Of a stretch of DNA of 64,000 nucleotides, positions 35,706 to 64,000 are shown piece by piece. Numbering within the stretch: the stretch's first letter is position 1; the number at the start of each line of letters is the position of its first letter. The notes under the pieces were generated by a model. That model was not told the DNA's origin. It worked only from the letters and a program-made list of their open reading frames with translations, and ran no database searches. Location: NCBI GenBank assembly GCA_027577595.1, contig JANBRJ010000017.1:62001-126000 (forward strand). Reading direction: 5' to 3'. Both the position numbers and the translations under genes were made by a program. The DNA is from Coemansia sp. RSA 487 (Eukaryota > Kickxellomycota > Kickxellomycetes > Kickxellales > Kickxellaceae).

Positions 35706-36623
35706 TGTGTTTAGATTATGTGTAAGTGTATAATGATTCCGAATGAAGAGCAACGTTGAGGGAGTATCTAGCTTCGAAAGGTGAAATAAACACTAGGCTC
35801 ATGGGCGCTTCACGCTCTTTATAAAAAATGTAGGTATGAGAAACTGGCACTTTTCCGTTCTGTCTGCATTCAGTTGACCTTTTTACCAAAGAGGCAAAAT
35901 ATTGCAAAATATGGAGACGTTTAAGCCACTCTTGTCATTTGAGTCCAAAGCCACCACCCAGCCTATGTATCTTGTGTTGATTGTTGGTAAGCCCGCTCTC
36001 CCCACCAATAAAAACGACTTTTACTATTTTGCTCTTTAGACAAGTCATTTTAATTGACAATATGATCAGCACCAAAAAGTGGATGCAGCATGTAAACAAA
36101 AAGAAAACCGATACCAAATGCGAGCAATAATGGTTGTAGTGGCATCTTGTTCCATCAAATTCTTTACCCTCACAGTCTTTAATATTTAGTAAACCATGCC
36201 AGAAAAATACAGGACGAATCTGAATTTCTACGGGTTTCATATCTCTTGAAGATACTTTTATAGCTCGGCTTGAGACTTTACAATCTAACTGTTCGTGATA
36301 ATATAACAAATGTTCACAGCTATGCATGCTCATTCGCCTGGCCAATAAAATACACCATTACTGCATCAAATATAATTATAGAGCTTTATTGTTGGAATCT
36401 AAGACATCAGAATTTACTGGTGCTGGCCAACACAAATGCTCCAGTGAATGTATCCAAATAATAAAGTTTAAATGATATGACAAACTTGTATCCACTAGGT
36501 AAGATTTCTCATCTTGATAATTTTCTATAATGACTGCTCTACTTTCCTAATTCGTTTCTATGATTATCCAAGTGTCACGATCACCCTTTTCAGAATCCAT
36601 TATCTACACCGGCCATGCAGGCT

Positions 36624-36731
36624 ATGATTAAATCGGACATAAATCTTGAAAGCCAAATATAAAAACTGTACGGCTGTGCTTACTGCACCTTAATAAAAGG
36701 CAAGCCCAGTATGTCCAACAATTCGTCATAA
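36624..36731 (+). pseudogene. Decayed microprotein module
   Basis: Two relics in a row. At 36624 a 12-codon frame reads MIKSDINLESQI and stops; its DNA matches a longer copy at 40807. Next, a TATA-like AAATATAAAA and the string CTGTGCTTACT (36674-36684, also found after the TATA box at 39638-39648) are followed by an ATG at 36711 reading MSNNSS and a stop. This resembles the MPNNSS start of the ORF at 41363. It looks like a dead copy of the modules described below. Confidence 0.35.
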
Positions 36732-36988
36732 AACTGAATTACACACATAGACCTATAAATATTTGGATCACAGTAGGCATTATCCGTTTCAGAATGCATA
36801 TCTTATAGAAAACACTCTAAAAAAAGCCTCATATCCACATTAAACAGTATATTTTTGCCGTTAGAAATTTTGGGAAATCCAAAAATATCATAATCAGATA
36901 ATGACGAGTTATCCGTTTCAGAGTGTTTTTTTAATATATTGCACACATGTATATGTTATGAGTGAGGATAAAAAGATAAAATATGGAC

Positions 36989-37314
36989 ATATAAATTATT
37001 CTGCAGTACTAGCTTCCATGAATTTCTCTTGCAATAGAAACATTTTCTTTTCACGCAGAACAATTGACAACTACAATCACATATTTGCAAAACACTATCA
37101 AACACCTGCTAAAAGGTAATCACATATCAGTATTTAATAAGCAATGTCTACAACCAAAAGTGGCAAAAGAGTAGCATTTGACGATAATAACCTTGCTGCA
37201 AATACAAAATCTAGAGATAACGACCGCAAGCAGAAGATGTGGGCAAAAGAGCAAGAGCGGGGAAAAATAATAAGAAGATATCAAGAGCGAAAGCAGAGAC
37301 TGGAACAGCAATAA
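36989..37314 (+). CDS. Charged microprotein 1 (56 aa) with upstream TATA
   Basis: The ORF is 37144-37314, with a CATATAAATT box at 36989, about 145 bp upstream. The 56-residue product starts MSTTKSGKRVAFDDNNLAAN and ends in a Lys/Arg/Glu/Gln-rich helix (YQERKQRLEQQ). It has no signal peptide or membrane segment, is likely disordered, and is strongly basic. KRVAF fits the RVxF docking motif of protein phosphatase 1 regulators. V10, F12, D13, an acidic residue at 14, L/I17, N20 and K22 align without gaps with the ORF at 42520. Codon content is more GC-rich than the surrounding DNA. No known family was recognised. Confidence 0.5.
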
Positions 37315-38039
37315 CAACAGAGCAGCTAGGCTGCTGTGGATCTCTAGTCCATCTCTGTGCCTTGTTCATTTGATGTGAGATACCACAATGACTGTGCACA
37401 AATATATGTGCTACCATAGACTAGCAATTAAGAGCCAATCGACAAGATGATATCCTCATAAGAAAGCCAATTGCATTAGCATACAGAAAAGAAAAGTAGC
37501 TGACTTTCTCGAACCTAACAATATCATATGTACCATGGTTAAACTAGACAAACCTTCAAAGACAACTATGAAAGTGTCACGATTAGATTTGCTACGCTTT
37601 CATAAGAACAATAAGCTCGGCTTGCCAGAACAATTTATCGTGTAGCTTGAATATAAACATATTTGGCAACTGAAGGGCATATGTGTTGGATAACGTTATG
37701 CGAAATTATAAATATAAAAGAAATTTCATTTTTCAGTCTAAAAATGTCTATAAATCTTCTGACTGCAATATGCATTGTGGTTTATAAATATGTATTATAT
37801 CATAACAATCTCAGTATTTCAACCTCAATTGCCACAATAAACAGCGTATATTTATGGCTCGTGACTTCATATAATCTAGAAATATCATAAAAGTATATAA
37901 ATAGAAATTTCCCATTCCTAGATGTATCTATATATAATGTGACTGGTTTACCATGGATCCAGGATAAAATAACACAGAGTAGTTATTCGATAGCTTGTTA
38001 CTCAAACTAGATAAGAAAAGAAGAAAAGAAAGAAATCCC

Positions 38040-38169
38040 TTGCCTTCCTCCGGAAGGCAATAATCCACGGGCAATGCTGCCCTTATATGTAACAGAGGGC
38101 CGTTACATGTAGTGGGCTATTCCATTGTTAGTGTTTAGTGGCTGTGCAAACCCATTGTCATGGGTTTGC
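38040..38169. repeat. Run of four short hairpins
   Basis: Four inverted repeats in 130 bp: TTGCCTTCC/GGAAGGCAA (38040-38060, 3-nt loop), GGGCA/TGCCC (38069-38082), ATGTAAC/GTTACAT (38087-38108) and GCAAACCCAT/ATGGGTTTGC (38146-38169, 4-nt loop). The segment is far more GC-rich than the island around it. It could be a structured RNA, a small hairpin-type mobile element, or a terminator array. There is no ORF inside. Confidence 0.7.
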
Positions 38170-38250
38170 TTTGCGTACGGCCATCAAACTAGCGTGACAT
38201 ATAATAAAGTTAACCAAATTGCATATAAATAGCATCATGAAAGCCGTGGA

Positions 38251-38486
38251 TATATAAATGGATGTTCGTCAGCACCCACTCTGAATTTCTTTTACAATGC
38301 GTTAAACATTTCTAAAGCAGTTATACTTCAATAATGTCTGAAAACCCTAGTAATGATTTTGATAGAAGACAGGCTGCACGACTAGCCAGGAATAAAGAGA
38401 GAGAAAGAGAAAAAAAAGAAGACGAGGAAAAAGAAAAGCTGCGAGCGGCACGCCGGGCAGAAAGAAAAGAGAATGGAATTAAGTAG
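38251..38486 (+). CDS. Charged microprotein 2 (50 aa) with upstream TATA
   Basis: TATATAAA at 38251-38258 lies 75 bp before an ATG at 38334. The 50-residue product starts MSENPSNDFDRRQAARLARN and continues as an almost pure Lys/Glu/Arg single alpha-helix ending ERKENGIK. The F-D pair near the N-terminus recalls the V/I-x-F-D motif of the neighbouring ORFs, but the V/I is missing. No family was recognised. The composition (over half charged) is very unlike random AT-rich DNA. Confidence 0.45.
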
Positions 38487-39227
38487 AAACAACGGGAATA
38501 GCAGGGAACAGTAGAACTCTTACATATTGCCATGCACAGTTAGCTCATCATGAAAAGCGCTAGTGGATATATCTAATTTTGTGTGTCACCACCGGTATCT
38601 TACATATTACATATACGTTTTTGTCTCAGAATAATTCAAATTTCACCACATTTTCATATGAGCTATTCATTACAGTATCAGTTTAAACATTCTAATTTGA
38701 TTATACGCTACCCACAGGATGGTGCTGTTGTTATCTGGCACTGCTAGTCATCAATAATCACTACCCATTAAACGATACTAAACATATTAGTGAACTGTGA
38801 ATAAAAGTTTGTTTTAGCTAGGTGTCAAGCTAAAACTTGCAACTAAAAGATATGAAGAAAAATGAGTCGCAAAAACTGTGTCGAATATTAGACACTTTGA
38901 GATATACTGTGCCTTAGGAATCATGTAGTACTATCGAAATAATCATATAAAGCTGAGAAGATTTGGACGTTTGGTTAAATCAGTTTCAAATGTGATTCAG
39001 ATAATATTTGCCATATTCTGTGTCGTGTGGTTAGCATATATCATTATATACTTGTCAATGAGTACATTTTAATAGCCTTAGTACAAAATGTAGCCAAAGA
39101 AACATATTTATAATCATTTTTGTAACATGGAAAGAATATGGCTACTTTTGTTGAAACCACATGTTATAAAACATATAGCACTGTAGTTATATCCAAATTA
39201 AGAGTATATATTCATACATAACAAACC

Positions 39228-39398
39228 ATGGGTCGGTTGACATGTAAGTGTGCCACAAAGCGCACAATTTTAAATTTTCAAACAATAGAAAAAGCAGCTG
39301 ATGAATATGCAGTAGCTAATATCATGTGCAAGCCTGATTATATCAGAAATACACCCAGAAGCTTAAATGATGTATTTCCATTTACCATGATCAAATAA
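39228..39398 (+). CDS. Possible small ORF (56 aa)
   Basis: The ORF reads MGRLTCKCATKRTILNFQTI and continues to PFTMIK. It is weakly basic with three cysteines and is less charged than the other small ORFs. A GTATATATTC box lies about 25 bp upstream, closer than in the other modules. Evidence for coding is limited to length and an ordered amino-acid mix. It may be chance. Confidence 0.25.
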   Translation: MGRLTCKCATKRTILNFQTIEKAADEYAVANIMCKPDYIRNTPRSLNDVFPFTMIK

Positions 39399-39607
39399 GA
39401 TTCAGATCCAATCTGTCATATGCTATGCCGTGTAGCTTGAATATATTTTATACATTTACTGAAAGGTAGATATTTATAGATATAAGGACTGACATCAGCA
39501 AATAAACATATTTAGAATTATGCTTACCAAATAGGAAGAGAATGTAGATATTTATAAGTTCAGAGTAATACTCATTTGTAAAATGATTGTAAGTGTAGAC
39601 AGCAAGT

Positions 39608-39628
39608 GAAATTCTGGGTATATAAAGT
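39608..39628 (+). promoter_or_regulatory. Island promoter element, copy A
   Basis: GAAATTCTGGGTATATAAAG. The same block with one substitution and one inserted base occurs at 42374-42395, before another microprotein ORF. The ORF at 39903 lies 275 bp downstream, so its leader would be long. Confidence 0.5.
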
Positions 39629-39902
39629 GCTACTCAGCTGTGCTTACTCCTGTATTTTCTCTTACAACAGCAATTTTTCTTTATTCATAAAGCATTTTGC
39701 AACAATTACCACAAGTTTACAAAGCTTCAAGAATATATTATAGGCGTTTATAAGTAATTGTACACTGGTGCCTATTAAACATTATTTCACACTTGTCAAA
39801 GTGGTGGAAACATTACATTTGAACAATAAACCCAAAGGGAAATAAGAAGGAGGTCCATAATTGTAACTATACTTACAAAAAGGATTAAAAAGAAAACTAG
39901 AC

Positions 39903-40214
39903 ATGCCAAGCAGAAAAGAGCATGATAGGCGGAGGAGGCGGCGTGAACAAGAAGAGCGTAAAAAAGAAGAGCGTGATGAGGCGAGGAGGCGGCGTGAAAA
40001 AGAAGAGCGTAAAAAAGAAGAGCGTAAAAAAGAAGAGCGTGATGAGGCGAGGAGGCAGAGGGAGATGTTGGCGCAACTGGATAGGGATAAAGAAAGAAGA
40101 ACAAGGCACGACGAAAAAGCACCTGTGGATGACTGGCTCTCCAAAACATTCGGCCCCGGTCTTCCCCCAGGAAAATATACTATAATTAGCCACCAACGCA
40201 AACGCAGATATTGA
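39903..40214 (+). CDS. Arg/Glu/Lys-repeat protein (103 aa)
   Basis: The first 70 residues are a charged helix made of near-repeats, with units such as REKEERKKEERDEARR occurring about three times and matched by repeated DNA. This is followed by a more ordered tail, APVDDWLSKTFGPGLPPGKY, and a basic end HQRKRRY. The tail shows that the frame is maintained beyond the repeat, which argues for a real gene. Likely a single alpha-helix with a C-terminal interaction motif; nuclear location is possible from the basic ends. No family was recognised. Confidence 0.5.
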   Translation: MPSRKEHDRRRRRREQEERKKEERDEARRRREKEERKKEERKKEERDEARRQREMLAQLDRDKERRTRHDEKAPVDDWLSKTFGPGLPPGKYTIISHQRKRRY

Positions 40215-40806
40215 ATTAAGGCACACAGGCATGATGCAAGTGTCACTGCAAACAGTTGTTCTTGGAATCCAATTGCCATTGTTTGATATTGCATTGCTGT
40301 GCATCCTGGAAAACACCCAAAACACAGTATCTGTGGAAGATTTCGGTTTAATATTTTATTATATGCTGTTGCAAAAAGGTTACAATGATTGAACAAGAGC
40401 AGCCAGACCGGCAACGGTGCTGATCAGTGAGTTTTTCATGGAGTAATTTTTTGTTTAATAATTTCTAATGATGTTGGTTGGTCTCAATTACAAGCAACTG
40501 TTAGTTAACTCAATTTATAAATGCGCATTAGTTTGTAAAGCTATATATGCACTCAGTGGCCACTTTGTTTTATTTATTACATGCCATGTCGCCATTAAAT
40601 AGTTTAAAGTAAATTAGTAAAGAAATACCAACATAATGAAAACGTCTAGAAAAACATGATGCTCTAATGGCTGTATTCAGAATATGAGCCGATACATTGT
40701 TGATGCAGAAGTATACCGACATAACAGAGATCTGTAAAGCAAAATATTTCAAATTACAACCAAACACCGTAAATGAAACTAGAATTTACGCAGCGACTAT
40801 CCTCAT

Positions 40807-40881
40807 ATGAATTTGGTCAAATCGGACATAAAATTTGAAAGCCAAAATAGGCATAATTGTATAAAATTTAGGATATGTTAA
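40807..40881 (+). pseudogene. Short relic of a microprotein ORF
   Basis: A 24-codon frame reads MNLVKSDIKFESQNRH and stops soon after. The VKSDIKFESQ part repeats at 36624 (IKSDINLESQ) and in part at 41967 (KVSFESQ). Three partial matches at both DNA and protein level suggest decayed copies of one ancestral ORF. Confidence 0.35.
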
Positions 40882-41204
40882 CTAGCTTTTGCGCTGTAAG
40901 ATTTGAATTATACACTTGTCCATATACAAGAAAGCAAAATTTTACAGCCCCTAATTGTTAAAATAGCAATAGAGTAAATGTGGATAAAGCTTACTTGTTT
41001 GAAGGTATCAATACGTATCTATTAATACTTGTATATCCTAAATGGCTCCTATTACAATGTATAATTAATTAAAATGACTCTTGCAACAGCAAATATTCGC
41101 AGTTCATGCATCCATATAATATGAAAATTGATTGTTTCCGGTCAATCTATGAATACTATGTAGTAAGAAAAACTATAAATATGACTAGCAAGATGAAGTG
41201 GGCA

Positions 41205-41548
41205 TATATAAAGTGTCGTTTGTTCAGTGCTTGATTTGCAAGCATCGCTGACAACATCAACACATACATCAAACACAGGCAAGTTTACAACTACGACTAT
41301 ACAGTTTCAAGGATAAGCCAGGAGCCGATTGTAAACAGCTCTAAATCAATCTTTATTCAACAATGCCCAACAACAGTAGTACAGCTCAACAAAAGGCTAT
41401 CATCTTTGATAAAAAAAAGTTACAAGAGGATCACGAGATAACAACTACATACAGTGCAAATAGCACGACAAAATATAAAAGCACTGGCAGTGCCTATAAT
41501 CGCACTGACCAAGGGAGTTTGGCAAAGCGTGAAGGCTATTTGAAGTAG
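41205..41548 (+). CDS. Charged microprotein 3 (61 aa) with upstream TATA
   Basis: TATATAAA at 41205-41212 precedes the ATG at 41363 by about 150 bp. The product starts MPNNSSTAQQKAIIFDKKKL and continues through a polar Thr/Ser/Tyr-rich stretch to REGYLK. KAIIFD fits K-x-I-x-F followed by Asp, the same V/I-x-F-D-x3-L/I pattern as in microproteins 1 and 4. It is disordered by appearance, with no membrane segment or signal peptide. No family was recognised. Confidence 0.5.
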
Positions 41549-42373
41549 TAACAAACACCAGCTAAAAGCATGGTAGGTATAGAAGACTTTATTTCTCCCA
41601 ATTTCTAGTTTTGCAATACTACAGCATGCGAGATTTGTAAAGTGCCGTTGTTGGTTTGCAGACGCAAATAGGGCAGGCAGCTTAATACTCGAGGAAATCA
41701 GCAAGTAAACTTCGTTAACCATACGTACTCATGAGCGCGGTTTAAAGAGTACTTTATTTTTAATTATAAGTAATTTCAAGCTGCTGCTTCCTTATTCGTA
41801 AAGTGTGTGGCAGCACAGGTTGACGGCTACTGCGTAGCAGAATGTTCATACAAGGAAGATATGAAAATTAGTAGACGTCAAACAAGGAAGCGTGAAAAAA
41901 GAAACCAGTGTGAACAAAGCACCTGACACTGTAAGAAAAGAGACTGAGACCCTCCAATTTTGTTAGAAAGTAAGCTTTGAAAGCCAAAAATAGAATTTTT
42001 AATACATTTGTACAATGGGTGTTTCTTTGCGAGTTGCATCATAAGGGGGCATGCACCCCATCTTACGTTCATCCTATCCGGCTGACTGGGAGATCCCAAT
42101 AAGTATGTCTATTTGACAAATTATAAATGAAACGAAGATCCTGCGTGACTTTTTGTGACCATCATACAAATACAAAACGTTTCATCTTTCTCGGCGGATT
42201 CCAGCATTTGTGACGACATTAGAGAACAAGTCAGGTAATGTTGATCACTCAATGTAGCATGTGGTTGGATGATGGCTGAACAAAAATCGAACAAGGAGCA
42301 CAGAAAGCAACATCACCCATTTTGGTAGGGTTCCCAACGTATCATCCATTCAATTGAATGCCGAAGAAAAAAA

Positions 42374-42395
42374 GAAGTTCTTGGGTATATAAAGT
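42374..42395 (+). promoter_or_regulatory. Island promoter element, copy B
   Basis: GAAGTTCTTGGGTATATAAA, near-identical to the element at 39608-39628. It sits 125 bp before the ATG of microprotein 4. The GAANTTC core is palindromic and could be a factor site, but it is not a canonical heat-shock element because the half-site spacing is one base instead of two. Confidence 0.5.
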
Positions 42396-42519
42396 ATCAG
42401 CTGAAGCATTTGTTTTCTCATCCGTTTTCATATCCGACAACAGTTTCTCCTTTCCGTTAAGCTAAACCACACACCTGCAAAGCACTTTCGAGCATATATT
42501 ACTGATATTTTAGACAGAA

Positions 42520-60879: not shown

Positions 60880-61318
60880 TATTAGACATTCTGTTTTCGT
60901 TTTCTTTTGTGAGGTTTATAATACATCTTGGGTGCGAAGCAAGTTGGTCTTGTAGTGGTAGTAGTAGTATTAGTAGTAGTATCAGTATTTAGTATACTTC
61001 CAGACCCCCGATTAGTGTTTACATGTGACCCACATGGTTCACAAAACATATAAAGAGAACTGGTTCTTTTGTATAAACCCCCACCCACCACCCAAACACA
61101 TACCCTCATCCTTTTCATCTTTTCTTTTTCCGCGATCCATGTCGTCATTGCGTCATGATCACAGTTTTTCCTTTGGGCTTCAAGCAATATAAATGCTTAA
61201 AAAACAATTGCCCTTGACTTTTTTTTCTTTCTTTCCAATCCTGCTCAGTTGGGTGTTTTCTTACTTCTTTTGGTTATCTATTTATATTATTCCATCAGTT
61301 CCCCTTTTCTTAGCTTTT
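60880..61318. other. Intergenic region with GTA microsatellite
   Basis: A 439-bp region. A TAGTAG/TAGTATTAG microsatellite lies at about 60954-60990. The next gene's frame is open from an ATG at 61193, but that part (MLKKQLPLTFFSFFPILLSW) looks like T-rich leader. Confidence 0.6.
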
Positions 61319-62365
61319 ATGGATCCGCTTGACAATAAATCCACAACACAGGCGCTGGCAGAGCTGTGCAGCCCTGTTTCAACTATTGCCACTGGAGGAG
61401 GATCATCGTGTCTCTCGCCACGTCCAGTGGAAACGATTCCGCACAGTGTCTACGAAAGCGCAGCAAACTACGTGCGCACAAAGCTCAAAGGTCGAGAACT
61501 TCCACAGATAGGGCTTATTTGCGGCAAGACACTCCAGGGTCTTGCTGACAAACTGGAAGGCGAGATAGTGGATATCCCACATACCGAGATCCCTGGGTTT
61601 GTCAGCAGCACAGTGCTCAAGTCAACGGGAAGGCTTGTGTTCGGCGAGATCAGCGGAACGCCCGTTGTTTGCATCGTCGGCCGGTGCCACTACTACGAGG
61701 GCTACTCGATGAAGCACATCACTTTTCCGATCCGAATGCTCTCTCTGATCGGAGTCAAAACGCTCATAATAACCACTGCTGTCAGCGGTGTTGCCTCCGA
61801 CCTGGATCTGGGTGACATCACCGTCATAAAGGACCACATTTCGCTGCCAACGCTTGCTGGACTCAACCCGCTGATTGGCCCCAACTTTGCGCAACTTGGC
61901 CCGCGCATGCCCAGCATGTACAACGCATACACCTTCAATATGCGCAAGCTGGCTTTCAAGGTGCTGCTGAGCGACCAGGAGCTGCAAAAGCGAGGCGTGC
62001 GGATGCGCGAGGCCATCTATTGCCACACTACGGGGCCCTCGTTCGAAACAAGAGCTGAGTGTTTTGCGCTCCGCTCGCTTGGCGCAGAGGTCATCGGAAC
62101 GTCGATTGTTCCCGACATTATTGTTGCACATCACTCGGGGCTCGACGTGCTTTGTCTTGGCCTTGTCACCAATGTCGTTGCCAAGGGCGACGAACCGTGC
62201 GCCGAGGAGGCTGCACGTGCTGCACTGGCTGGAACAAAGGCTCCGAAACCAAAGGACGTCGATGCAGATGATGACATCCTGGCTCGCAAGGGGTCAGTCA
62301 AAAAGGGCAGCCAGCGTGCTGCTGACCTCAACCTCCTTGTAAAGCGAATGGTCGAAACTATGTGA
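61319..62365 (+). CDS. Divergent purine nucleoside phosphorylase-like protein
   Basis: A 348-residue member of the trimeric PNP/MTAP family. Conserved blocks: the GRLVFGEISGTP strand, GRCHYYEGYS (His86 and Tyr88 equivalents kept), DHISLPTLAGLNPLIGPN, TGPSFETRAE (purine-binding Glu kept) and LVTNVVAKG (Asn243 kept). Several active-site positions are changed. The phosphate loop GSGLGG reads GKTLQG, putting Lys where Ser33 binds phosphate. His64 reads Ser, NAAGG reads TAVSG, Met219 reads Thr, and His257 appears lost. A basic tail with DDDILARKGSVKK is added. An ordinary PNP would split inosine/guanosine with phosphate; activity here is uncertain. The start MDPLDNKSTTQ was preferred over the ATG at 61193. 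Confidence 0.82.
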   Translation: MDPLDNKSTTQALAELCSPVSTIATGGGSSCLSPRPVETIPHSVYESAANYVRTKLKGRELPQIGLICGKTLQGLADKLEGEIVDIPHTEIPGFVSSTVLKSTGRLVFGEISGTPVVCIVGRCHYYEGYSMKHITFPIRMLSLIGVKTLIITTAVSGVASDLDLGDITVIKDHISLPTLAGLNPLIGPNFAQLGPRMPSMYNAYTFNMRKLAFKVLLSDQELQKRGVRMREAIYCHTTGPSFETRAECFALRSLGAEVIGTSIVPDIIVAHHSGLDVLCLGLVTNVVAKGDEPCAEEAARAALAGTKAPKPKDVDADDDILARKGSVKKGSQRAADLNLLVKRMVETM

Positions 62366-62369
62366 ATGC

Positions 62370-62666
62370 TGTGTTTTGCAAAACTAGTTGTGTCGAATAA
62401 AAAGGATATATACGCGTCGAATGGCGAAAGGTTTGCAGTGGTGATAATGCATTTTGCGACCCAAGAAAAAGTCGTTTGCGCAGGCGTGGTATATGTATCA
62501 GCGCAAAACAGGAAAACAAAAATGATTAGTACCATTGTCAAAAAGCAGTCACGGGTGTTTATCTCTTCAGCTCTCATTTGAGCACCTACCTGCAAAAGGG
62601 ACAGCATCCTATCTTAGAACTAGGATTTGCCGCGGCTATAACCTTGGCTGAATTTCGTGGTGGTTG
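62370..62666 (-). ncRNA. Candidate guide (omega-type) RNA region of the Fanzor locus
   Basis: This roughly 300-bp stretch lies between the PNP-like stop and the Fanzor stop. TnpB and Fanzor loci usually encode their guide RNA overlapping or just after the 3' end of the nuclease. A hairpin, ATCCTA/TAGGAT with a 9-nt loop, lies at about 62609-62630, with a GC-rich GCCGCGGC-type stretch beside it. This is a position-based suggestion and no conserved RNA sequence was recognised. Confidence 0.25.
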
Positions 62667-64000
62667 TTATTTGTTCGTCCTCGCCGTCTTCTTTGCCGCT
62701 GTCATCTTCCTTTTCTTCTTGGGCTGCTGTTCATCGGTGGTAGCAACGGCTGCAGGCTGACTGCGACAGAAGCGCTCTGGAGTCTCACCATAGTCACGAA
62801 GGCCATGGAAAATATGCCTGAAGTTGAGAACCGCTGCAAGATCTCGGCTGTACATGCGAGAACGAGGATTCAAAACACCATCCACTTCCACGGGCCCCAT
62901 ACATAGTTCGTTGGTGCACTTAAGGAGACCGTGGCAAAGCACTTCTTTCATCTTCTCTCGCTGGTAGGGGCGAGGGTTGGGCACTTTCAGGAACGTCTCG
63001 AGAGTGCCGGTGAGGCAGTTCGGGCAAGTCTTTGACGTTCTGAATTCGTCAATAAGATAGACTCGGCACCCTTTTTCCTTAGCATTCGCCGAAATCCAAC
63101 CCCCCGTATAGGCTCATGGTAGCGAGCCATTGGCGCACTCAAGTTACCTAAGATCACAGTGGGGTTTTCAGCGTTGCATGTCACCCGAATGCACTTTGCT
63201 AGCTGCTCATCGGCTTGTTGTTGCTTGATGTGGGCGGATTGCCGAAGCTTGCGATGAATTGGCTGAAGGTTGTTCCCATTTTTGCTGGTGGTCATGGTGT
63301 TCGTGTAGAATTTACTCAGCACTGGCCAAACAGCAGCACGTGTCCTGACATATTGCTCATATTTACCTGGCAATACTGATGTGCACGAAAAAGCAGCCAA
63401 TATAGCCTCAGCAGCCTTGATTTCGTTGCTGTCTGGGTGCTCTTTCTTGACCTTTTCCCTCAGCTTGCGGTAGTGGGTTGTCCGGGTTTCTTTAGCCTTC
63501 TGGCTCCGTGTGTATCGGAAAAGCGCTTTCTCCTCAGAGGTGCTCCCATCCGTCATGCCAAAGACGATGTCCTGGCGACCTGGATCCATGAAAATCGGAT
63601 TTTCCATGTTGGCCAGCTGCTCTGGCAAAAGCTCGTGGGTATATGTGAACTCACCCGACTTCTCTTCTCCTGGCTTTTCTCGCTTCCTGGGCTTCTTGGG
63701 CTTCTTGGGCTGGTCCTCTGGCAATGAGCCAGTAGCTGTGTTCTCAGCTGGAGCCATCTGCCCACTTCCGCTGGCCTCGATGGAAGTATTTTCTTCAACA
63801 TCCCTTTTCTTCGCCTTCCAGCTGCTTTTTTCTTTGGCCTTTGGGGTCTTTTTGATCACAGACGCTGCCACGCCATCAGTCTGTATTGTGCCATAGAATC
63901 TGAAGCTATTTCTTATCCGTAGCACCCTCGATTTTTCGTTGAGAAATTTATACCAATAGATTTCAATGGGGGGACTTCGCGTTATAGCTCCAGCCCATTA
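62667..64000 (-). pseudogene. Fanzor (eukaryotic TnpB-like RNA-guided nuclease), partial with frame break
   Basis: Reading from the right edge: YWYKFLNEKSRVLRIRNSF and FYGTIQTDGVAASVI match the segment before the RuvC domain of Fanzors. Then come MDPGRQDIVFGMTDG (RuvC-I Asp near 63585) and VILGNLSAPMARYHEPIRGV. After a one-base frame shift near 63060 the text continues YLIDEFRTSKTCPNCLTGTL and NPRPYQREKMKEVLCHGLLK, with CTNELC completing a Cys4 zinc finger (CPNC, about 63030; KCTNELC, about 62920). RuvC-III is MYSRDLAAVLNF (Asp at 62841-62843). The tail has PKKKRKM, a classical nuclear signal. There is no ATG before the RuvC part inside the window, so the N-terminus lies to the right or in another exon. 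The break may be decay or a base-calling error. Confidence 0.85.

Follow-up and report, generated by a model that had tools for sequence, protein, structure and literature searches.

Fanzor proteins are eukaryotic cousins of the CRISPR cutting enzyme Cas12. Elements in which a Fanzor1 gene accompanies a mariner transposase, and elements that have mariner ends and carry Fanzor1 only, were described by Bao and Jurka in 2013 (PMC3627910). The part of that paper cited here (PGv-1, PUl-1 and PUl-4) covers elements that unite Fanzor1 with a transposase of the mariner type, Fanzor1-only elements with mariner inverted repeats, and TA flanks. The Spu-1 family of Spizellomyces punctatus (Saito 2023, PMC10432273) is described, in the sections cited, with 42 Fanzor and 134 ghost loci, multiple copies of Fanzor1 between inverted repeats, conserved bases at the left flank and Gypsy/Ty3 sequences in some loci; the ghost loci are shorter, have no Fanzor ORF and resemble the right end. 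The role of Fanzor for its transposon is open in the papers cited here: the same sections of Saito 2023 report no transposase between the Spizellomyces repeats. The best-scoring solved relative of the gene studied here is PpFz1 of Parasitella parasitica (PDB 9cf0-9cf3, PMC11423790, cited in part).

The window analysed is a stretch of 64,000 nucleotides (C17:62001-126000) of the 17.8-Mb genome of Coemansia sp. RSA 487 (184 contigs). Its last 1.6 kb carry, on the minus strand, a Fanzor1 gene split over two frames. Most probably, the window copy belongs to a Tc1/mariner-type transposon with Fanzor1 as its second gene, lacks the transposase and was broken recently; this reading includes the trans mobilisation and guided donor-site repair proposed below. 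It is based on Fanzor1 homology, on same-strand transposase matches at sister loci, on common inverted-repeat ends, on dN/dS and on a bias in the left flanks.

The element fits kinds that had been published before (mariner with Fanzor1, and Fanzor with ghost loci). Compared with the elements of Bao and Jurka, as far as the cited part of PMC3627910 describes them, many copies and three forms are found here in one small genome, the ends are about 100 bp long, and CA is more frequent than TA at the right flank. Compared with Spu-1, as covered by the cited sections of PMC10432273, the present family includes a DDE_3 transposase, and its short copies, about 1-1.4 kb, retain the end of the Fanzor gene. 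A literature search on Fanzor, which covered transposons, fungi and early-diverging lineages, gave no account of this genome among the matches listed, most subscription journals lying outside its scope. The window copy by itself is ordinary, and it is the genome's set of copies that is useful: since transposase + Fanzor, Fanzor-only and Fanzor-less elements share their ends in one small genome, they form a direct test bed in which the role of Fanzor can be asked directly, and their natural flanks make the TAM reading checkable in vitro.

The Fanzor1 gene of the window

The first-pass annotation had identified a Fanzor nuclease from the order of RuvC-I (DPG), a Cys4 zinc finger, RuvC-III and a PKKKRKM tail. 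That order was recovered across the two window frames (MDPGRQD, DEFRTSKTCPNC, RMYSRDLAAVLNF, PKKKRKM), and the identification was supported by phmmer matches to solved proteins (PDB) in both frames, the C-terminal frame (148 aa) scoring E=6.7e-24 against Parasitella Fanzor1 and 1.6e-11 against Spizellomyces Fanzor1, and the middle frame (336 aa) 1.2e-22 and 6.2e-9. Motifs and matches together place the Fanzor identity well beyond chance. The profile search that had been advised for both frames succeeded for one of them: PF07282 was barely passed by the C-terminal frame (27.3 bits for a cut-off of 26.3), and no Pfam family was above cut-off for the middle frame. With NCBIfam, none was above cut-off for the C19 Fanzor or the window C-terminal frame, the latter reaching E=0.0047 with a TnpB family.

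The sister protein of the C19 copy, encoded in one frame, matched Parasitella Fanzor1 with E=2.7e-103 (in three stretches) and Spizellomyces Fanzor1 with E=1.4e-43. Its D of MDPGRQD, E of DEFRTS and D of NRDLAAV align with D383, E541 and D606 of SpuFz1, the catalytic residues as named in the cited part of PMC11423790. The same source gives PpFz1 an FRI insertion of ~100 aa in RuvC; 107 residues (989-1095) lie between the two aligned stretches in PpFz1 versus 9 here. The Fanzor motif given in the cited part of Bao and Jurka is D-X(125,275)-[TS][TS]-XX-C4 zinc finger-X(5,50)-RD (PMC3627910), and DPGR, TSKTCPNC, CTNELC and RDLAAV were found by eye in that order, split over frames in the window copy. 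All three RuvC residues (D, E, D) are present in the window copy, spread over the two frames, together with the zinc-finger cysteines and the PKKKRKM tail. As most of the protein is homologous to solved Fanzor1 proteins, the window gene is classified as Fanzor1, and the same homology suggests that Fanzor copies would perform RNA-guided cutting. The PKKKRK tail, which resembles the SV40-type signal, is also found in the C19 and C60 sisters and is a plausible nuclear signal.

The extent given in the first-pass annotation (62667..64000) proved too short on both sides, the right end of the element lying at about 62,369 and the N-terminal third of the gene past the window end (locus L009). The element runs ~1.1 kb past the window, to about C17:127112, with inverted-repeat arms at L009:1385-1490 and L009:4008-4113. 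The left repeat is without about its last 20 bp, so that the target-site duplication of the window copy itself is unreadable, and no transposase was found between the two ends. The right end falls ~1-4 bp past the stop codon of a host phosphorylase gene, tail to tail.

Table 1. Features of the Fanzor1 element and its neighbour (window coordinates)
Feature	Position	Strand	Evidence or remark
Host gene, phosphorylase superfamily (PNP_UDP_1)	61193..62365	+	PF01048, E=2.2e-30
Fanzor-only mariner-type element, right part	62369..64000	-	Right end L009:1370 = window 62369, by terminal-repeat match
Right terminal inverted repeat, 106 bp	62384..62489	-	L009:1385-1490; 84% complementary to the left arm outside the window
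Most conserved non-coding block in the family	62621..62652	-	Directly after the Fanzor stop codon
Fanzor1 C-terminal frame	62667..63113	-	E of DEFRTS, C4 zinc finger (TNB), RuvC-III D of RDLAAVLNF, tail PKKKRKM
Fanzor1 middle frame	62987..63997	-	RuvC-I D (MDPGRQD, near 63,586); the register holds only between ~63,07x and ~63,97x
First frame break	63065..63075 (approximate)	-	Open frames and comparison with the C19 copy
Second frame break	63967..63974 (approximate)	-	Just inside the window end; locus L009 and comparison with the C19 copy

Copies of the family, their transposase and their constraint

A protein-level search of the genome for Fanzor gave at least 70 matches, and because 59 of 266 first-look candidates were scored these counts are lower bounds. 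The 70 matches merge into at least 49 loci, at least 34 of them close (best identity 77-100%) and at least 15 divergent (36-49%); many loci touch contig ends, and one physical copy may count twice. Of the 34 close loci, 17 have a same-strand DDE_3 match no more than 5.5 kb upstream, and none has an upstream match on the opposite strand; of the 15 divergent loci, 1 has such a same-strand match. Terminal inverted repeats and a DDE transposase, both features of Tc1/mariner elements, are present in the family. DDE_3 matches number 51 in total, and 32 of these are near no Fanzor match, several of the 32 being near contig ends. On the frame of the C19 sister (locus L012) the DDE_3 match has E=3.3e-19, and the longest open frame among the 51 is 317 aa, so that an active transposase remains putative. 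DDE_1 (PF03184) had no match in the genome and none in 14 controls either, and is hence uninformative.

The family ends are inverted repeats of ~100 bp, with at least 56 left and at least 40 right ends recorded in three terminal-end searches, each of which scored the best 40 of 196-238 candidates. These common ends enclose three forms. The transposase + Fanzor form is represented by C78, which measures 3,938 bp end to end and has both genes broken. In the Fanzor-only form the left repeat adjoins the Fanzor gene (C17, the window copy; C60; C119; C54:1). The short, deleted form (about 0.95-1.4 kb) keeps both ends and the last ~600-700 bp, as in C40, C35, C29, C23, C12 and C69, and further short elements were obtained by end pairing in C42, C5 and C49.

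Distances between DDE_3 and Fanzor matches form two groups, 368-937 bp and 1,810-2,893 bp. In the C19 copy, ~2.5 kb between transposase and Fanzor (L012:6715-9190) are missing from compact copies; within this stretch, an opposite-strand frame matches reverse transcriptase (RVT_1, E=6.9e-32) and appears to be of Gypsy type, and portions of the stretch recur in 10 further loci (e.g. L013:7398-8396). This retrotransposon fragment was spread together with the element.

The divergent Fanzor1-like set (at least 15 loci: C113, C101, C23:54759, C81:59236, C66, C54:63941, C65, C57 and others) includes several long open frames, one of which, in L117, measures 781 aa. Around the two loci inspected, L117 and L011, no repeats resembling the mariner ends were found; the longest distant pairs there were short, A/T-rich or chance-like, and the divergent loci were therefore kept apart from the mariner family.

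All tested motifs were present in one frame over 690 aa at 4 of 13 loci (C19, C82, C71 and C60), with dN/dS among these copies of 0.25-0.36 (mean 0.31). The search for intact copies that the first-pass annotation had advised gave unbroken-looking candidates: in C19, C82 and C60 one frame stays open from the start codon of the family through the tail. Shared ends define the element. The start codon was not recognised in C71 or in the C5 copy L019, the latter encoding 760 aa with LIDEFKTSK at the E. Relative to C19, dN/dS is 0.24-0.31 for the 13 copies including that of the window, and frame-changing indels amount to 1-4 in 10 of the 12 other copies (one each in C82 and C71, none in L010 and L019). 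Since dN/dS is about 0.3 among copies diverged by dS 0.19-0.29, the Fanzor coding sequence was constrained through most of the family's history.

Flanks, right end and the role of Fanzor

The dinucleotides flanking the element ends differ between the two sides: TA 27, TG 14 and other 5 at 46 left ends; CA 21 (e.g. L010:5267, L056:1814), TA 13 and other 8 at 42 right ends. The counts include the right end of L013 and the left ends of L035, L051 and L079; they exclude L084, where the end matched poorly, L099 and L064, which have their flanks in common with another end, L076, which faces the other way, and 5 of 18 right-end stretches without a recognised end (L068, L069, L070, L072, L073). Among 16 elements paired by hand, TA/CA occurred 6 times, TA/TA 4 times, and TG/CA, TG/TG, TG/TA, TG/GA, TA/TT and TA/AC once each. 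With TA/TA in just 4 of 16 and TA/CA in 6, the pairs depart from what plain TA duplication predicts, and the CA excess at right flanks, where left flanks are mostly TA, is not explained by such duplication with random mutation afterwards.

Of the 46 left ends, 29 are preceded by ATN, and 14 of the 42 right ends are followed by its mirror image (P=0.006); a C one place further out was counted at 19 left versus 5 right ends (P=0.004). This agrees with the TAM reported for Parasitella Fanzor1 in the cited part of PMC11423790, which is ATN. As the position was chosen after inspecting eight, most left ends belong to other copies than the right ends do, and P is modest, the bias is a suggestive lead to a natural TAM trace and not a proof.

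A guide RNA would be expected from the right end. An alignment of 24 copies shows that this end is conserved, and the best conserved non-coding block (Table 1) has 94% mean pairwise identity, the highest of 29 overlapping 30-column windows (median 86%). It is a candidate 3' UTR element or guide-RNA segment. Some 250 bp separate it from the right end, and published Fanzor1 guide RNAs measure 75-150 nt in the cited part of PMC11423790, so that a guide RNA of this length ending at the element end would not reach it. RNAalifold gave no convincing conserved fold for the 24 ends (covariation term +0.28 kcal/mol, two-sided change in 5 of 43 pairs), and Rfam had no match in L009 or L012. The distance of the block from the right end and the lack of a covarying fold and of an Rfam match count against the explanation preferred here, as do the flank pairs, the length of the longest DDE_3 frame and the 32 DDE_3 matches away from any Fanzor match.

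Under that explanation, full copies would move by cut-and-paste through the DDE transposase, and Fanzor-only and ~1-kb copies would be mobilised in trans by it through the common ends. An intact Fanzor would load an RNA from the right end, with flanking host DNA as guide, and would cut the emptied donor site beside the left-flank TAM, after which repair from the sister copy would restore the element there. A broader idea, put forward tentatively and with more doubt than conviction, is that Fanzor shapes the survival of the mariner element: copies might persist at TA-type sites with a left-flank ATN that records guided cutting of the emptied site, and transposase-less and ~1-kb copies might use both transposase and nuclease in trans.

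Fanzor may instead be a passenger in an ordinary mariner element, without a role in its spread, the short copies being ordinary MITE-like deletions. Such a passenger would be consistent with the lack of a transposase match in reach at 17 of the 34 close Fanzor loci (some of them contig-end pieces), with the frequency of short copies without most of Fanzor and with the modest asymmetry of the flanks. It is nevertheless rather doubtful, as dN/dS stays low across diverged copies and left flanks are richer than right flanks in the TAM of the closest solved Fanzor.

Probable decay of the window copy, and its surroundings

Compared with the C19 copy over 731 codons, the window copy has 0 in-register stops, 2 frame-changing indels and dN/dS of 0.26. 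The first-pass annotation had proposed a recent inactivation, with which these values agree, through a single one-base frame change. The break near 63,070 is indeed in the sequence, and a second one, just inside the window end, had been missed. The first had also been placed between a RuvC-II-like region and the zinc finger; it precedes the E of DEFRTS, which shares the frame of the zinc finger. By its sequence, the window copy is recently broken, can no longer encode the whole protein and still carries its right end, and its breaks look late.

So few lesions, and frame changes in most other copies, could also come from noisy repeat assembly, in which case both breaks would be assembly or sequencing errors in a gene that is really intact. 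We consider this unlikely, because the adjacent host frames stay open over long stretches (390, 459 and 461 aa), the sisters C19, C82 and C60 are open in one frame, but with the indel counted in C82, and the window copy is truncated at its left end too, as expected of a decaying element. A domesticated host gene, to which the constraint on the protein might point, was rejected as highly improbable on copy number (at least 34 close loci) and inverted-repeat ends, the sisters having a transposase and the window copy being broken.

Elsewhere in the window, positions 36000-42500 contain only one stop-to-stop frame of at least 200 aa, and GC drops to 0.34-0.365 in 36001-42000, versus mostly 0.40-0.61 in the remainder.
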